NCBI RefSeq assembly: GCF_016097555.1
Contig: NC_054704.1
Coordinates: 44,553,800-44,617,799 of the forward strand
DNA length: 64,000 bases
Direction of reading: 5' to 3'
Source of the DNA: Gigantopelta aegis
Taxonomy: Eukaryota > Mollusca > Gastropoda > Neomphalida > Peltospiridae
Shown here: in pieces, positions 33,077 to 47,097 of the stretch
Layout: each line of letters begins with the position of its first letter
Numbering within the stretch: the stretch's first letter is position 1
Notes under the pieces: generated by a model
What the model saw: only the letters and a program-made list of their open reading frames with translations
Told to the model about the DNA's origin: nothing
Databases searched by the model: none
Translations under genes and position numbers: made by a program

Positions 33077-33399
33077 TCATCGCACAAAGTTTTCTGCCAT
33101 GGAATTCTCGTGTTTAGGTCTTAATGCAGCAAGAGGCAGATCCTTGTCGAATTTGAACTGACGTTTGTCGTGGAACTTGGTCAGTGCGGGACAGTTCGGG
33201 TGTTTGTCTTTCAGATGGAAGAAGTGAGCTTCCGGATCACGAGTTGTCTCCCCGCAGTCCTCGCACACGTACATCTTGTCGCGGCGCTCCTTGTAGGCAA
33301 ACCGGAAGTTCGATCCGTGCACCTTCTTGGCGTGCGACTCCAACGAACAGCGCTGGGTGAAAGCTTTGCTACATAGTTGACACTTGTAGGGCTTGACTC
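33077..33399 (-). CDS. ovo: ovo exon 5 (zinc fingers 3 and 4)
   Basis: Acceptor CATTTCAG before 33399; stop TGA at 33079-33077. Codes GVKPYKCQLCSKAFTQRCSLESH (in two parts), KKVHGSNFRFAYKERR, the fourth finger YVCEDCGETT..HFFHLKDKHP, then PALTKFHDKRQFKF and a short tail. The 'FTQRCSLESH' and 'AYKERR.KMYVCEDCG' words are diagnostic for ovo. A SINE lies 17 bp upstream of the acceptor. Confidence 0.95.
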
Positions 33400-36300
33400 C
33401 TGAAATGATTTAATAAAAAGTTTATTGTGGTAACGACACCACTAGAGCACACTGTTTATTAATCATTGGCTATTGAATGTTAAACATTTGATAATTTTGA
33501 CCTATAGTCTTAGAGAGGAAACCCGCTACATTTTCCCATTAGTAACAAGGAGTATCTTATAAGACACCTTCCTACAGACAGGATAGGACATACTACGGCC
33601 TTTGATATACCGTCGAGGTGCACTGGCTGGAACGAGAAATAGCAATACCCCAATGGGCCCACCGACAGGGATCGATCCCAGACAGACCGCGCATCAGGCT
33701 TTACCACCGGACTAAGTCCCGCCCCTTACAGATGATGATCCCACCTTTCAAAAGGATATAACAATACACCAGTATATCTTTATTTAGCATATAAAGTTAT
33801 CAGTATTGGGATTTGAATTCAACTGTTTTAGCAGCAATATCTACATGTAGTAGTGTAAATCCGGTAACCCAAAATATATCTTATCGGCAGTATCGGTTAT
33901 ATTTTTTCAAGGGTGATGTTCAAAAGGTGGTGAACTCCAGATGTACACCAGTGTTACTTTTTGGTGTAGTCATGTATCCGAAAAAGTATATTCCTACAAA
34001 ACTGACCTGGCTGAAAAGTATGGTTCGTCTGAATCATGGGATGTACCGACTTTTCTTACGATTGTCCACAAACCTAAACCTCACTAGTTAGTCTGACAGT
34101 GTTGTCTTTTACAATTTCAATCATACATAATGTGTGTAAAATGTACCTGTGTGTATTCGAGTATGGCGCTTTAAGTCAAAGGTATCGTTGAATCTTTATG
34201 TGTCGGTTTAACACAGAATGAGCAGAGGTACCTCTTCTGACGTCGTTGCACTGTGGCTTCTTTATGTGTCAGTTTAAAAATGAAACTATTTGCACCTTCA
34301 AAAGAGACAGTCTTCTGCAAACCAAACTCCTTCTGGCAGACGTTGCACATGTATTTTCCCGAAAGATGAAACCTTTCGGTCACCGTAACTACAAGAAACA
34401 ATTTTCAGAAAATATATAAAAGGTATAAACAATTTATTTGCACTTACAAACAGTCAAAAAAAGACTAATGTTATGTGAAAATTCATCTGAGCAGGATGTT
34501 GTCATGCTATGTATTAAAACAACGATAGGCTAACACCGCCCCTTCTCTCTACGTATACCATAATAATATATTTTAAAGAACTTTCATATGAGGCCTTTGT
34601 CTTGATACATTTGTGTTAATAATGATGGTTTACCTTTGTCTTTGATGCAGCTGTCTCTACTGTCCCTCTCTGTGAATTTGGGGTTCTTGATGCCGTAACC
34701 ACCGTTTATCATTTCCAACTCCCCGGCGTTAGTAGTGTATTGCTAAAATAAAGAGATATTTAAGGGGTGAAATATGCAATTGGGTACATGCAATCATCAA
34801 AACAATAGACAAAAGTGAATTAATGTTTAATAATCTCTTAACAAAGCCATATGGTTTACTTCTTTAGACTCACACACATGTAGACGGATGGTCATAAATA
34901 TTAGGCGTGGTACGGGGACGGGGGAGGGGGGTGGGGGCGATGCTGCCTATTTGTGGTCAGGTAATTATTGTTTGTTTGTGTAAGACGAATTAAATTTTTT
35001 ATCAATACCAAGAAACTAAATAATAATAATGTAATAACCCACCCACCTACCCCAGTTTAAAAAAAAAAAAAAAATCGGCTGAGGATAACCAAATACTGTC
35101 GCAGTGAGCCTTAATATTACCGGTATGTTGAGGAATGGAAGTATTTAATGACACTCCATTATTACTCAACGAATGCTAGGTATCACGTGTCAGGTAATTG
35201 CTATGCGCGTTCTAGACCAAGAAAGAAAGAAAGAAGAAGACGACAACCCAGCACGGAAGGCAACAATACATGTCATGACGTGATGAGACAAACGGTACAT
35301 ACAGCTGCTGTAGGCGTCACCTTTGTTGTTATTTAAAAACATGAAACGGGCGACTTTATCCAGTGTGCCATGACACAACACAAATCAAGTTTATTATAAA
35401 TGATGGACCGTTTAACACGTGGTGTAATGAATGTGAAATCCCAACCGCATTTAACCAAATAAATAGGTATTTGTTTATTCTTTTCTTTTGTTTGTGTTGT
35501 AAATTAGGGGAGGTGGAGTGGGGTGAGGTTGAGTGGGGTGAGGTGGAGTGTGTGTGTGTGTGTGTGTGGGGGGGGGGGGTCTATTTGTTCCTTATATATA
35601 TACATTTTATTATTGTAATTATTTTTTTTGGGGGGTGGGGGTTGGGGGGGGGGGGGGCGTACTTACATTCAACAAATTCAATAGTGTTGGCTCCGATTTA
35701 ACTGTGCTGTCCTCTTCAAACGGGGACAAGGCAGAATTTTCTTTGGATACCGGACATTGATCTTCTTCCCACGTCTTCTCATGCTCTCTCCACGAAATGC
35801 CCGAGGGCCCTCTGCTTCTTTCTCCGTGTCCGAGACCGGAGGGTTCAGCTGGACCAAGCACATCACCAAATCGTTTCTGAGACACTAGATATTTCCTAGA
35901 CTGGCCGTCTGCCCGAAATGGCTGGGTCCTCACATGACTTGGTCTGCCGACATTGTGGTTTGGATTGTTGTTGGGATTGTTACTGGGCTTGATATCGGCT
36001 AGCGGAAGTCGAGGCGTGTTATACGATGAGACTGACCTCAGAGGTTCGAAAGGAATCACCGACATGTTCTGGGGGATGTTCGAAGGAGGCTGCGCCTCGA
36101 ACGTGTTCTCCTTATTCATGTGTGGCGATATCCGCATTACATGTCTGTCCTGAATCTCCAACCGCTGGCTAGCTTCACGTCTGCCCAAGTCTGTAGACGT
36201 CACAGCTACGGGTAGTTCTCGTTTTACAACCATTTCAGGCTTTACCTGAAAGGTTGGTCTGTAAACACAATTTATTGGCAAATAGTTTCGCGTAGCTGGA

Positions 36301-38127
36301 CTCTGGACGTTCCAAACAACTGGCTGGCTCGACGTTTTAACGGGTACGTGTTGCATGTTTTTAGAACTCGTCTTCGACTCCGACCTCTCTCTCAATTCTG
36401 CGTATTCAACAGTTGGCACTTGGTGAGTATGAGTAGCACTGCTGCTGGTTTCGACCACAGACATGTTCAGCGGAGAAACCACTCTTGGAAACGGGCTTGG
36501 GAAGCGTGGAGGTATGACTGAATAGTCAGTGCCAACCAGCGGCAGCCGACCCACCGATGGAACACTCGACACCGGAGTGGGCGAAGGTTGTTGATTCCTG
36601 ACGGGTAATGGTCTGACAAACGGCAACTGACTCGACAGATAGGGACCACTGCGAACCACTCCGAAAGACGTATGCACAACAGGTTTAGAAAGGTCTTTGA
36701 TAGAAAGGTCTTTGATAGCAACGTCATTTGGTAATGTTTGTGTTCGGTAGAACTGCTCGTTGACGGGACTGGATCTGGCGAAAAGAATTGGGTGCTCGGA
36801 TGGTCTGGACTGTTGGTAGTCGTCTCGCGACACTGGTGCTGGTGCGGATGACCGCTGCATGCTTCTGTGTAAAGAGGTTGCCACAGGCGTCGACGTGAAC
36901 ATTTCTGCTGCAGGACTAGTTGGAGCACTTGCTGGTTTCCAGAGATTTGCCATGGCCACTGAACTACCACAAGACGACGGAGGTGGGGTAAAGCAGGCCA
37001 CACGAGCCTGGTTGATCAGTCGAACGGGTATCGGTGAATGCACCCATGGTCGGGCGATGTGCGAAATCAATTTCTGATCACAAAATGCACTGGGGTCTTT
37101 CATTTTAGGTGTAGAATTAAACACTAAGGGAATACTGTGGTGTTCTGCGAGTCGATTTGACACTAGTGGAGCAAACGGAACAAATGTGTTTGGCATGTCT
37201 AGCATATAGCGATGTGGATCATGAGGCGAGCTGATACTGGACTCCTCCGCTGAAACAGGGGGACTTCGTGCGGTGGAAGTGGACTCCTGCAAAGATTCGT
37301 CCGTGATTAGACTGCCATAGCCACTGGAATCGCTACTCGTTGATTGCGAGTGTATCTTGAGACGAGTTTCACTTTGGTCGTTGGTCCATTCATCTGTAAG
37401 CTTCGGTTTCTTGGCGGCAGTGTACCCTTCCTCACCTGTAAACAGAAGAGATAATAAATTAATAAATGTGATTATCTTCAAGTCTTTACGCTGAAAACGT
37501 ACGTAGCTGTTTGAAAGTTAGGTCACCTAATCATGCATTGCCCCTCTTAGTTCCTCTAGCTGAAAGGTGAATTAATATAGCATTCCCGCCAATTTGTCGG
37601 TGTCTTCCCACGCCTAGTATGGAATAGGGACTACGTCAACATCTGAAGACATGTGGCTGCTTTCAATATTTATATTATTATCCATTATTCTTTTTTACAT
37701 GGTTTCTGTTTTTCCCTGAAATGTTCTGGAAGTGGTTAACATGTTCAAAAATGTTACTTATTTTAACAAAAACACACTTCGCTGATTTGGGCTACGACAG
37801 GTGTTACTCGGCGTATATAGCATGCGTAATTGTTTCATATTACTCTGCGGACTCTTCTTCCAAACTTCCTTCAGTGGCCTATCTAACCAAACATTCGTAT
37901 GAGGGCCTCCTATTATTACTGTTGAGTGTGGGATGGTGGGGGGGGGGGGGGGCGGGGGGCAGTGACGTAGGTAGCTAAATTATTAATCAGATGTAAAGGT
38001 TCGAAATTCATTATTTGGAGTGGGGATGAATTATTAATGCCACCCCAGAACAAAAAGTACACATCCGCTATTGGGTGTAAAAGTAAGTACATAAATGAAT
38101 TAATAATCAACATCCGATCGATATACA

Positions 38128-42507: not shown

Positions 42508-44700
42508 GTGTGCGTGTGCGTGTGCGTGTGCGTGTGCGTGTGTATGTGTGTATTGAGCTACGTGTGTGTGTGTATTGAGCTCCACACTTGCCTCGAAAGT
42601 TTAAGGTGAACGGCAAATTGATCGCCTTGCAAATTGATGTGTCTCCTATTTCAACTGCAATGCGATATATGTCCATTCTTGTTCAATTTATGGTACTAAC
42701 GTTTTGGGGATGTTTGGCCACTGGCATGAGTATGTGAAATATTTTGGATGTTAGTCGACATACAGTTGGAAATACGATAACCTTAATTATTTGTGGGGAG
42801 GTTGTTGGTTTTTTTTGATGTGTTCGACCCGGTACCGGGAAATGAACCCAGTACCCACCAACCCGATGACCAGACCACTATGTCGTCAATGTCGATTTGC
42901 CGACTGTACCGATTAGCAGCATGTCTAGGTGTAACACTTTCCATCATGGTCAGACATGACAACACATACCACGACCCTTATTAGATCAAGTCCACTCAGT
43001 TTACATGGTCAGGCACGATCTTGATGGCGTGATTTGTGAACCATGGGAGTGCTATGGAGCAGAGCAGCACAGCTGACAATCAACTGGCCGGTTTATGACA
43101 GGTCACCGTGGTACACCTAACCCCCAGATTAACTCCGGTTTACTACGACAGATGTGTATACTACTACCACCACCACCAAGAACTCGGCAGTAAACAAAGA
43201 ACATGACTTGCTCTGGGCCTTGGAAATTTCAAATCGGCGCACGACAGGTGTGTGCAGAGTGATTGGGAGAAGCCGCAACGTTTAATCGATTTTTAGACTG
43301 GGAGATCAAAGTGCCCTGCCCTTCACAAACCGGCCTACCAAGATGTTTGGCGCGGGTTACGAACCGATAAAACGAACGTCTGTCGTGTTTCCTGCACACG
43401 TGTAGAATTTGGAGTGAAAATGAAGTGTTTAATGTCATTTTAGTCATTAATATTCTTTATACAATAAGTTAAATCTACTTGTTCTTGTTTCTTGGTTTTT
43501 TTTTTTTTTAAATAATATTAATAAAATTGTTTGTACAAAACCAAATAATATTACTGATAGTTCTACAAACCAAGAAACAATAGCAAAATAAATGTCAAAC
43601 GTAAACTGTCTAAATAAAATACCACATACTGACAGGGTTTCTGTGAGAGGATACGAAGGGTAAAATTACGTATCCTAAAATCTTAGAAATTAATCATAAA
43701 TTAATATATATTTTTTTCAATTTAAAATATTATAGTTTAAAGAATTACTGCGTCAAAATGAAATGCAGTGTTGAATTTCAAAGATTTTAAACCCATAATC
43801 ACTTAGATGGGGCACTTATCGTCTGTTTTTATTATTTACTATCAAATGATTTTCTGGCAGAAAGCCTGATTGGTGTTTATTTTTAACATTCTTAACTGTT
43901 TGTTACAAAATATTTTAAAGATTTTTTTTAATGGAAGTTATAAATGATCCGGTTTGCATTTTTTTTCTATTAAGAATTATAGTTTACCCTATACGTTAAC
44001 TTATGAACATTCTATGTTGGTATACAATTATATTCAAATGTGATGACAGTGATGACGAAGCTATGTATATCGTCACTATATCGGCATATTACTGACAGAT
44101 GTTACAAAACATTAATAGTAAAAACAGACGAACATAAACACAGGGCCGGATTTAGACCGGGGGAGGGGTGGGGTGGGGGGGGGGGGGGAACTTCAGGTTC
44201 GGAGGCCCCAGAAATTAAATTACATGACAACTAAAAAACCCACCTAATTTTATAATTATTAATTTTTTTAAATAAAGGATGTCCTTAGTTTTTGGGGGGC
44301 CCCTCTGGACAATTTCCCCCTTTGCCCCCTTATAAATCCCGCACTGCATAAAGACAACCCTTTTAAAATAATAACAAATATTACATTATAAACAAGACGA
44401 AAAATGTCGATAAGCGATGTCTACAATAAAAGTTGTATACAAGTTATCTATGTGTGTATTACTAGTTGTACGTTACTGCACTGGAATGAATAAGAAAAAC
44501 CCCTGTCAAGGCTTGTAACAAGATACTAAACCACAACAGACAAAAATAACGTGAAATCACTGACCTGTGAAAGATTCCCCATCATCTTCTTCTACCAAGA
44601 TATCGTCTGCTCCTGTATTCTTGTTTATATCAGTGACGTCCGTTGAATCCAGTCCTCTTTTCTTGGCCTCACATCGACGTATTAGGAAAGACCGAGGCAT
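33077..44700 (-). CDS. ovo: ovo/OVOL-type zinc-finger transcription factor (whole gene, five exons)
   Basis: Exons in transcript order: 44700-44565, 37435-35667, 34742-34634, 34388-34147, 33399-33077. Introns are GT-AG and phases match except across exon 4. The protein would be about 855 residues: N-terminal SNAG peptide MPRSFLIRR, an acidic stretch, a basic KKPKL, about 590 disordered Ser/Pro-rich residues, a 36-residue linker, then the ovo C2H2 region (CNVCQKEFGLQK; FNDTFDLKRHTRIH; YKCQLCSKAFTQRCSLESH; YVCEDCG). OVO/OVOL proteins are nuclear repressors/activators of epithelial and germline genes; SNAG peptides recruit LSD1-type corepressors (family knowledge). Exon 4 is damaged (see its entry), so as written the sequence does not encode a full protein. 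Alternative first exons, as in other ovo genes, were not seen. Confidence 0.9.
33417..33725 (-). repeat. SINE-A copy, full length
   Basis: Tail 'GTTTATTGTGGTAACGACACCACTAGAGCAC', centre, and head 'GGGATCGATCCCAGACAGACCGCGC...GTCCCGCCCC'. Same strand as ovo, in intron 4, with its 3' tail next to the exon 5 acceptor. Confidence 0.92.
34147..34388 (-). pseudogene. ovo: ovo exon 4 (zinc fingers 1 and 2), damaged
   Basis: Acceptor TTCTTGTAG, donor ACAG|GTACAT, both sound. The start reads VTVTERFHLSGKYMCNVCQKEFGLQK, proper finger 1. Then the two histidines are missing and about 13 foreign residues appear. KRYLCSFC of finger 2 follows, then the frame shifts and hits a stop (TAA within TTGACTTAAAG); in the next frame FNDTFDLKRHTRIHTG is intact. 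The exon is 242 nt where 240 or 243 would fit. A 19-bp word occurs twice (34193-34211, 34259-34277). Causes may be assembly error, a null allele or real decay. Confidence 0.85.
34634..34742 (-). CDS. ovo: ovo exon 3 (linker)
   Basis: Acceptor TATTTTAG, donor AAAG|GTAAAC; 109 nt, entering in phase 0 and leaving in phase 1. Codes a 36-residue polar linker (QYTTNAGELEMINGG...SCIKDK) between the disordered region and the fingers. Confidence 0.8.
35505..35660. repeat. G-rich low-complexity block in ovo intron 2
   Basis: Repeated GGGGTGAGGTGGAGTG words, a GT run, and two G runs (35569-35579, 35632-35657). The last one ends beside the exon 2 donor. Confidence 0.85.
35667..37435 (-). CDS. ovo: ovo exon 2 (disordered regulatory region)
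   Basis: 1769 nt fully open, acceptor CTGTTTACAG, donor GAAT|GTAAGT. Codes residues 47-635: rich in Ser, Pro, Thr and Asn, no predicted fold. Visible motifs: AAKKPKL (possible nuclear signal), three psi-K-x-E words (VKPE, VKRE, VKSE; possible SUMO sites) and a tandem IKDLS repeat. The exon ends in LLNLLN. A poly-C run starts four bases after the GTAAGT donor. The long open frame, with no lesion, argues that the gene is under selection. Confidence 0.9.
37436..38440. other. ovo intron 1, 3' part
   Basis: Contains a G run at 37938-37957, 'CAGTGACGTAGGTAGC' and a poly-C tract of about 32 at 38131-38162, which together look like a hAT-type MITE with unclear borders. No exon seen. Confidence 0.5.
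38441..39150. promoter_or_regulatory. GC/CpG-richer block in ovo intron 1, possible regulatory region
   Basis: Stands out from the AT-rich, repeat-filled intron: many CpG, no SINE, words such as TTTTGGCGCG (E2F-like), GCACGTGAC (E-box) and CCGTTA at 38763-38768 (OVOL-type site). No TATA box or exon could be linked to it. The role is an inference. Confidence 0.25.
39484..39800 (+). repeat. SINE-C copy, full length
   Basis: Head 'GAGCGGGATTTAGCTCAGTTGGTCGAGTG', B box 'GGATCGAACC', centre 'GGGAAAGTGCACATAAAAAGATCCC', tail 'GTGGTGTTGTTAAACTAAACAAC'. Best-preserved member of family C here. Confidence 0.92.
39801..40700. other. ovo intron 1, T/A-rich, nothing recognised
   Basis: T-rich runs at 39860-39950, then unassigned sequence. 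Confidence 0.45.
40705..41215 (-). repeat. SINE-B copy split by an insertion
   Basis: Left part starts 'GGAAGGAAGGAATGTTTCATTTAAGGACAC' and 'GGTTATATGGTA'; after the insertion it resumes 'TTGGACATCTACTTAAGGACCACGC' and runs to a degenerate head near 41185. Old copy. Confidence 0.8.
40767..40989. mobile_element. CAGGGGCGTAG MITE inserted in a SINE
   Basis: Ends CAGGGGCGTAGGCTG and, reversed, CAGGGGCGTAGCGTG. Flanking repeat TGGTA at 40762-40766 and 40990-40994. The 223-bp inside matches 53679-53896 ('GCTGAAGCAAATGGTCCGCT', 'GGTCCACTTGGTTCATATTC'). G and C runs lie at the two ends. Confidence 0.9.
41327..41668 (-). other. Unrecognised 113-codon open frame in ovo intron 1
   Basis: Begins MRTCRFSNLPLQRL and is of mixed, protein-like composition (MPDDLPLLSPNEG, QIFSLCEKLTSRV). 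No family recognised, no splice context checked out, no low-complexity bias. Most likely chance or a transposon remnant. Confidence 0.15.
41670..42420. other. ovo intron 1, AT-rich, nothing recognised
   Basis: No repeat family or exon seen. Confidence 0.45.
42425..42560. repeat. (GT)n / (GC)n microsatellite
   Basis: Interrupted GT run with GC and CT patches, longest from 42471 to about 42545. Confidence 0.95.
43633..43868. mobile_element. CAGGGTTTCT MITE
   Basis: Left end CAGGGTTTCTGTGAGAGG; right end reversed CAGGCTTTCTGCCAGAAA. AT-rich inside. Similar ends at 47845-48086. No clear target duplication. Confidence 0.55.
44141..44346. mobile_element. hAT-type MITE with near-perfect 8-bp target duplication
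   Basis: Left end CAGGGCCGGATTTAGACCGG; right end reversed CAGTGCGGGATTTATAAGGG. Flanks CATAAACA (44133-44140) and CATAAAGA (44347-44354). Lies about 220 bp inside intron 1 of ovo, next to exon 1. Confidence 0.85.
44565..44700 (-). CDS. ovo: ovo exon 1 (SNAG exon)
   Basis: The ATG at 44700-44698 starts MPRSFLIRR, the SNAG repressor peptide, which must be N-terminal; that decides the start over an in-frame ATG 20 codons earlier. 45 codons plus one base, then ACAG|GTCAGT. After SNAG come basic CEAKKR and an acidic ADDILVEEDD. Confidence 0.88.
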
Positions 44701-46104: not shown

Positions 46105-47025
46105 TACAATCACCCATCTCTCGTTCCCCTGTACAGTAATTTCATATTGACCTTATTCCAAACATAAAGTCACTCGCCTCTCATTCCCCTGTATGTACCT
46201 TCTTATTGACCTCATCCAAACATGTCACCCGCCTCTCATTCCCCCTGAGCAGTACTGTATTACTGACCTCATCCCAAACCACAAACACAGCCACCCGCCT
46301 CTCATTCCCCTATACAGTATTTTCATATTGACCTCATCCCATACAGTCACCGGCCTCTCATCCCCCTTTACAGTACTTTCTTATTAACTCATCTCAAATC
46401 ACAAACACAGACACCCGCCTATCATTCCCCAGTACAGTATTTTCGTATTGACCTCATCCCATACAGTCACCGGCCTCTCATTCCCCTGCACAATACTTTC
46501 TTATTGACCTTATCCCAAACCCAAAACATACAGTCACCCGCCTCTCAATCCCCTGCACAATACTTTCTTATTGACCTCATCCCAAACCCAAACCATACAG
46601 TCACCCGCCTCTCATTCCCTTGTACAATTCTTTATTATTGACCTCATCCCAAACCCAAAATGTACAGTCACCCGCCTCTCATTCCCCTGTACAATACTTT
46701 CTTATTGACCTCATCCCAAACCCAAAACGTACAGTCACCCGCCTCTCATTCCCCTGTATAATACTTTCTTATCGACTACATCCCAAACCCCAAATACATA
46801 CAATCACCCGCCTCTCATTCCCCTGTACAATACTTTCTTATCGACCTCATCCCAAACCCCAAATACATACAGTCACCCGCCTCTCATTCCCCTGTACAAT
46901 ACTTTCTTATCGACTTCATCCCAAACCCCAAATACATACAATCACCCGCCTCTCATTCCCCTGTACAATACTTTCTTATCGACTTCATCCCAAACCCAAA
47001 ATACATACAATCACCCGCCTCGGTT
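46105..47025 (+). repeat. 62-69-bp minisatellite, about 14 copies
   Basis: The unit carries 'CACCCGCCTCTCATTCCCCTG', 'CAATACTTTCTTATTGACCTCATCCC' and 'AAACCCAAA'. Early units are irregular; from 46741 the spacing is steady at 69 bp (46741, 46810, 46879, 46948, 47017). A 69-bp unit keeps one frame open for 135 codons; I do not regard that as a gene. It lies 1.1-2 kb upstream of the candidate ovo TATA box. Confidence 0.95.
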
Positions 47026-47097
47026 AATACCTTGTGTTATTTTTCGTTCCCGTTGACTCACAATTTAAAAACAAATAAATATATTAATAATAAAGAA

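Follow-up and report, generated by a model that had tools for sequence, protein, structure and literature searches.

How does a conserved developmental regulator come to carry one broken zinc-finger exon amid coding sequence that is otherwise intact, and is the damage in the animal or in the assembly? The locus in question lies in a window of 64,000 nt (C6:44553800-44617799) of the Gigantopelta aegis assembly (1.149 Gb, 5216 contigs), the published genome being given as 1.15 Gb in 15 pseudo-chromosomes in the consulted part of its description (PMC7895826). The open reading frame of the largest exon, exon 2, matches the NCBI protein of LOC121374569 from the same species at 100% identity across 94% of the frame, and a relative (P0002) at 57% identity across 66% of it. 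The gene occupies the minus strand in five exons, with intron phases 1, 0, 1, 1 and GT-AG sites:

44565..44700, minus strand, exon 1: start codon at 44700, reading MPRSFLIRR; donor ACAG/GTCAGT; phase 1
35667..37435, minus strand, exon 2: 1769 nt, open; acceptor TTTACAG; donor AAT/GTAAGT; phase 0
34634..34742, minus strand, exon 3: motif INGGYGIKNP, like a motif of the paralogs and of Haliotis; ends in phase 1
34147..34388, minus strand, exon 4 (finger 1/2 exon): length 242 nt, disrupted by 50 nt of inserted sequence
33077..33399, minus strand, exon 5: holds complete fingers 3 and 4 and ends in the stop codon

The protein start is the same as that of the NCBI model (P0001), and we take it to be a SNAG-like repressor start. 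Exons 1, 2, 3 and 5, 2337 nt together, join into one frame that is open to the last codon and free of lesions, as expected from the initial annotation of this DNA, which had placed all the damage in exon 4. The NCBI model is built of all five exons, keeps the in-frame insertion of exon 4 and departs from the frame once, before FNDTF.

Exon 4 is confirmed as an exon of an ovo/OVOL gene that has good splice sites and no complete zinc finger. Acceptor (TTCTTGTAG/TTACGG) and donor (ACACAG/GTACAT) are both in place, and 242 nt cannot keep the frame because both flanking introns are of phase 1. The in-frame reading runs through YMCNVCQKEFGLQK-TVSFEGANSFIFKLTHKEATVQRRQK-RYLCSFC, then shifts and ends at a TAA stop, FNDTFDLKRHTRIHTG being in another frame. 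In a MAFFT alignment with its counterparts in two paralogs, exons of 198 and 177 nt, exon 4 differs over the finger region by insertions alone, of 31, 1, 7 and 11 nt, with no deletion, within about 120 nt; the 7-nt block resolves by eye into 5 + 2. Upstream of finger 1, where the paralogs vary freely, exon 4 falls 6 nt short of the exon of paralog B. The first three insertions total 39 nt, so that fingers 1 and 2 have their cysteines in one frame, and both finger-1 histidines are lost between these two sets of cysteines; it is the final insertion, of 11 nt, that displaces the frame ahead of FNDTFDLKRHTR. The exon is thus much as first described, with its good splice sites, its length incompatible with the frame, a first finger deprived of its two histidines, some 13 unrelated residues after GLQK and a later frameshift.

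34280..34311, minus strand: largest insertion, 31-32 nt with ambiguous ends, after GLQK, inside finger 1
34171..34173, minus strand: TAA stop of the in-frame reading

A Pfam scan of the open reading frame holding exon 4 returned no family above the cut-off; the same scan of the Haliotis protein gave three zf-C2H2 (PF00096) stretches. No alternative exon 4 was present among the roughly 40 best window matches listed by a permissive tblastn, and none of the five proteins matched by a short exon 4 query, one of Lottia gigantea among them, carries the insertion.

In the consulted part of the literature on the family, ovo/OVOL proteins are recognised by a tetrad of C2H2 zinc fingers (PMC3380836), whereas LOC121374569 keeps the complete pattern only in fingers 3 and 4. 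The Haliotis protein P0003 has four complete fingers, and it is fingers 1 and 2 that are destroyed in the assembly of Gigantopelta aegis. Beyond this difference the likeness to Haliotis ovo (P0003, P0004) extends over the start (MPKSFLVCR vs MPRSFLIRR), the NGGYGIKNP motif, fingers 3 and 4 and DKRQFKF, and residues 640-858 of the NCBI model share 63% identity over 94% with Haliotis. The tree comprised 25 rows (24 proteins hand-picked from 120 listed, minus two of Saccostrea in which the end motif was not found, plus LOC121374569 and paralogs B and C); it groups LOC121374569 with Haliotis (85/80) and joins paralog C to a second group of bivalves (90/84); paralog B, whose branch is very long, stands next to the first group. 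These supports are modest, and the placing of long rows, our three included, is rated unsure. The kinship and the tree placement bear out the earlier proposal of a mollusc ovo gene, and in the recommended comparison with ovo of related molluscs the Haliotis orthologs are intact. Judged from its sequence, LOC121374569 is an ovo gene by descent that has lost half of its domain. Its branch is long (0.55, vs 0.014 and 0 in Haliotis), which would fit loosened constraint. Two OVOL genes have been reported from Lottia gigantea, according to the part of that study consulted (PMC3380836); the word ovo has no occurrence in the Gigantopelta aegis genome paper.

A gene that Haliotis and bivalves retain would not, a priori, be expected to be lost. 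The concern of the initial annotation, that a conserved regulator is unlikely to be lost alone, is softened: LOC121374569 is not the only ovo gene of the assembly. When the assembly was searched at the protein level with a generic ovo finger domain, 150 of 2561 candidates were scored and gave 257 matches; among those listed are two paralogs, followed by other zinc-finger genes:

C6:44697671-44698984, plus strand: paralog B (L022, L023), about 110 kb from LOC121374569
C6:50832457-50838958, minus strand: paralog C, about 6.2 Mb from LOC121374569

Both lie on the same chromosome as LOC121374569, and in each the finger 1/2 exon is complete and, further upstream, a large open frame occupies the place expected of exon 2. 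Among the three genes paralog B alone has four complete fingers; in paralog C fingers 1-3 are complete. Their exon 5 proteins are 62.5% (B) and 54% (C) identical to that of LOC121374569, and exon 2 has no significant match in either (lowest E 0.17 for B and 1.5 for C); by this divergence they are diverged paralogs and not recent copies. The suggestion that a second, intact locus might make the present one a partial pseudogene copy is unsupported: exon 4 with its flanks (301 nt) and exon 2 (1769 nt) matched only themselves in a DNA search of all 5216 contigs in which simple repeats and very common words were skipped. A search of a plasmid collection gave, as expected, no match.

Some features of the paralogs deserve mention in their own right. 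Finger 4 of paralog C (C6:50832457-50832759, L024) reads CEEDG vs CEDCG and lacks the second cysteine, a zinc ligand kept in all 120 of the fetched proteins in which the motif occurs. Paralog B is inverted relative to LOC121374569 and fast-evolving. RYLCSFC is common to B and LOC121374569, the Haliotis form being RYLCTFC, and because it is common to both it hints that B may be a lineage duplicate of LOC121374569.

The state of the other exons limits the time available for decay. If the gene had been neutral over its whole length, and if indels are assumed to arise at a ratio of 0.1 to substitutions, 2.8 lesions would be expected in it per 1% divergence; since 2337 nt hold none, the time since death would be at most about 1% divergence (0.8-1.6% for ratios of 0.15-0.05). 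Within 1%, the chance of at least five independent indels in 192 nt of exon 4 is about 2e-6; for four, worked out by hand, it is about 5e-5. That a redundant ovo copy has slowly become a pseudogene, as the existence of two other ovo genes would permit, is therefore extremely unlikely: a classical pseudogene has lesions spread over its coding sequence, and five evenly spread independent events would all fall in exon 4 with a chance of 2.5e-6. More can be said for an exon 4 that has long been dispensable and decays by itself while a two-finger protein is made by exon skipping, as exon 4 is of phase 1/1 and exons 1, 2, 3 and 5 form an open frame of 778 aa with fingers 3 and 4 complete. An exon that had long been neutral should, however, hold far more substitutions than indels (about ten to one, an assumed ratio), and the surviving pieces of exon 4 resemble Haliotis at 35 of 40 residues vs 68 of 83 in exon 5 (Fisher p 0.60, no significant difference), so that we regard this possibility too as quite unlikely. 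Long decay, of the gene or of exon 4 alone, does not fit, and the readings to be separated are those of the initial annotation, namely an artefact, a segregating null allele and a very recent event. The clean exons and the conserved pieces of exon 4 together imply that the insertions arose in one event or are absent from the animal.

A local source for part of the inserted DNA bears on the single event. The finger-1 coding sequence TTAAACCGACACATAAAGA is present again inside finger 2, 66 nt downstream, as a direct repeat matching at 18 of 19 positions that sets finger-1 codons in finger 2; the segment TTAAACYGACACATAAAGA corresponds to the codons of L-N-R-H-I-K in the old frame, with TGA in copy 1 and CGA in copy 2.

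34259..34277, minus strand: repeat copy 1, taken as the original finger-1 site; TGA
34193..34211, minus strand: repeat copy 2, inside finger 2 at the G-K-G codons of paralog B; CGA; net frameshift of +11 nt
34427..34455, minus strand: tail of intron 3, resembling the 31-nt insertion; a possible, weak template

Local repeats of 18/19 occur at 13 places of the window, the exon 4 pair included, and several of them are in tandem arrays. For the 31-nt insertion, similarity to exon sequence does not exceed that of shuffles. The intron 3 tail matches it with a score of 27, which in two shuffling designs is reached by 0.4% and 0.9% of the shuffled sequences; the match emerged from several comparisons, and under one other scoring its p was 0.037. 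The same score is reached by 9 of 1704 window stretches, a count that includes the insertion itself and the match, and three other places score 28-29, no lower than the intron 3 tail, which as a template is only suggestive. By a rough estimate made by hand, an 8-nt match (GTGCAACG) is no more than chance would give. The inserted pieces thus comprise one sure local copy, one weak one and a rest without traceable source. Elsewhere in the window, 46169-46953 is dense in local direct repeats with spacings of 55-138 nt, overlapped by a repetitive open frame on the plus strand (46575-47027).

From an insertion cluster with one copied piece, set among intact exons in a gene with two paralogs, we infer, tentatively and at somewhat less than an even chance, a very recent clustered loss-of-function change in the finger 1/2 exon of the sequenced Gigantopelta aegis haplotype. 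One event would be needed because independent indels in exon 4 are improbable within about 1% divergence. It is tempting to propose that a polymerase slipped back and re-copied nearby sequence, by template switching or serial slippage, and so left four or five short insertions, one or more of them copied from finger 1 of exon 4, after which fingers 1 and 2 could no longer form. The change may be fixed or heterozygous, and the two other ovo genes may buffer the loss. That they could do so, and that the branch of LOC121374569 is long beside Haliotis, speak for a real event. The direct orientation of the copy is closer to serial replication slippage. Several indels within about 100 nt, one of them with a local template, nevertheless recall the short-range template-switch clusters treated in the consulted part of PMC7954356, where the median copied length is 12; that study requires templates in reverse orientation, unlike the copy in exon 4.

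The strongest competitor of a recent mutation is an assembly error, in which the animal itself has an intact exon and the assembly retains a faulty stretch of consensus, about 120 nt long; we hold this to be a serious possibility, slightly behind the former. According to the consulted part of the genome paper, PacBio reads were corrected with Canu (corMinCoverage = 0), assembled with wtdbg2 (-e 2, --rescue-low-cov-edges) and polished by two Racon rounds and one Pilon round, with 171 Gb of Illumina foot reads on one reading of the sentence (PMC7895826). In our judgement this route could leave poor patches at low coverage. The damage consists of insertions only with few substitutions alongside, the rest of LOC121374569 is perfect and the Haliotis orthologs are intact, all of which would be natural for an error. 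NCBI had already tagged the model LOW QUALITY PROTEIN, which speaks in the same direction; the label means that NCBI's model departs by alteration from the genome sequence and is silent on whether genome or gene is at fault. Against an error, the Pilon round with Illumina reads should have removed many simple consensus errors; residual PacBio errors are usually single-base, and insertions of 31 and 11 nt, one of them copied from nearby, would be unusual.

Exons of the CCT family served as a control. Of 64 matches, 13 on small contigs were set aside, and none of the 51 on large contigs has a break in mid-exon, which also argues against an error, though this control is blind to exons too broken or too short to match. 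The closest two matches are 262 nt apart and in one frame, none abutting as a split exon would; stops occur in 13 of the 51, at match ends or in spanned introns as read from the translations. The 13 CCT-like matches on small contigs (C758, C861, C950, C1023, C1076, C1234) have in-frame stops in 11 cases and may represent pseudogenes, foreign DNA or matches that continue into an intron.

What is at stake differs between the two readings. If the change is real, it would be a datable one-step loss of half the DNA-binding domain in a conserved developmental regulator, and the two remaining paralogs would allow a direct test of duplicate buffering. If it is an error, it cautions that a chromosome-scale assembly can contain a plausible-looking loss that gene-loss surveys would count.

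Splicing might also remove the damage. No internal splicing of exon 4 restores both fingers, the yield being one weak chimera: of 21 in-frame open internal GT/GC-AG pairs, one (GT 34327 to AG 34194) gives a complete C2H2 finger, CNVCQKEFNDTFDLKRHTRIH, by fusing the halves of fingers 1 and 2 across a would-be new intron of 134 nt (34194-34327). The donor (GTTTGG) and the acceptor (ACACATAAAG, with no pyrimidine run) are poor, however, and fingers are modular enough for such a fusion to arise by coincidence about one time in ten (rough hand estimate), which makes a new intron very unlikely.

It is unlikely as well, if somewhat less so than a long-dispensable exon 4, that Gigantopelta aegis is replacing its ancestral ovo, with LOC121374569 reduced to a two-finger protein through exon 4 skipping and paralog B taking over; a single replication error would then just have removed fingers 1 and 2 from the ovo gene that matches Haliotis. 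Should the change be real, transcripts retaining exon 4 would be translated through 72 of its codons and yield a predicted product of 743 residues with no complete finger (exons 1-3 supplying 671 and exon 4 the other 72), and those that skip it would stay in frame and encode a protein of 778 residues with fingers 3 and 4. The TAA at 34171-34173 lies about 25 nt upstream of the last exon junction, and under the usual 50-nt rule the former transcripts may therefore escape nonsense-mediated decay.
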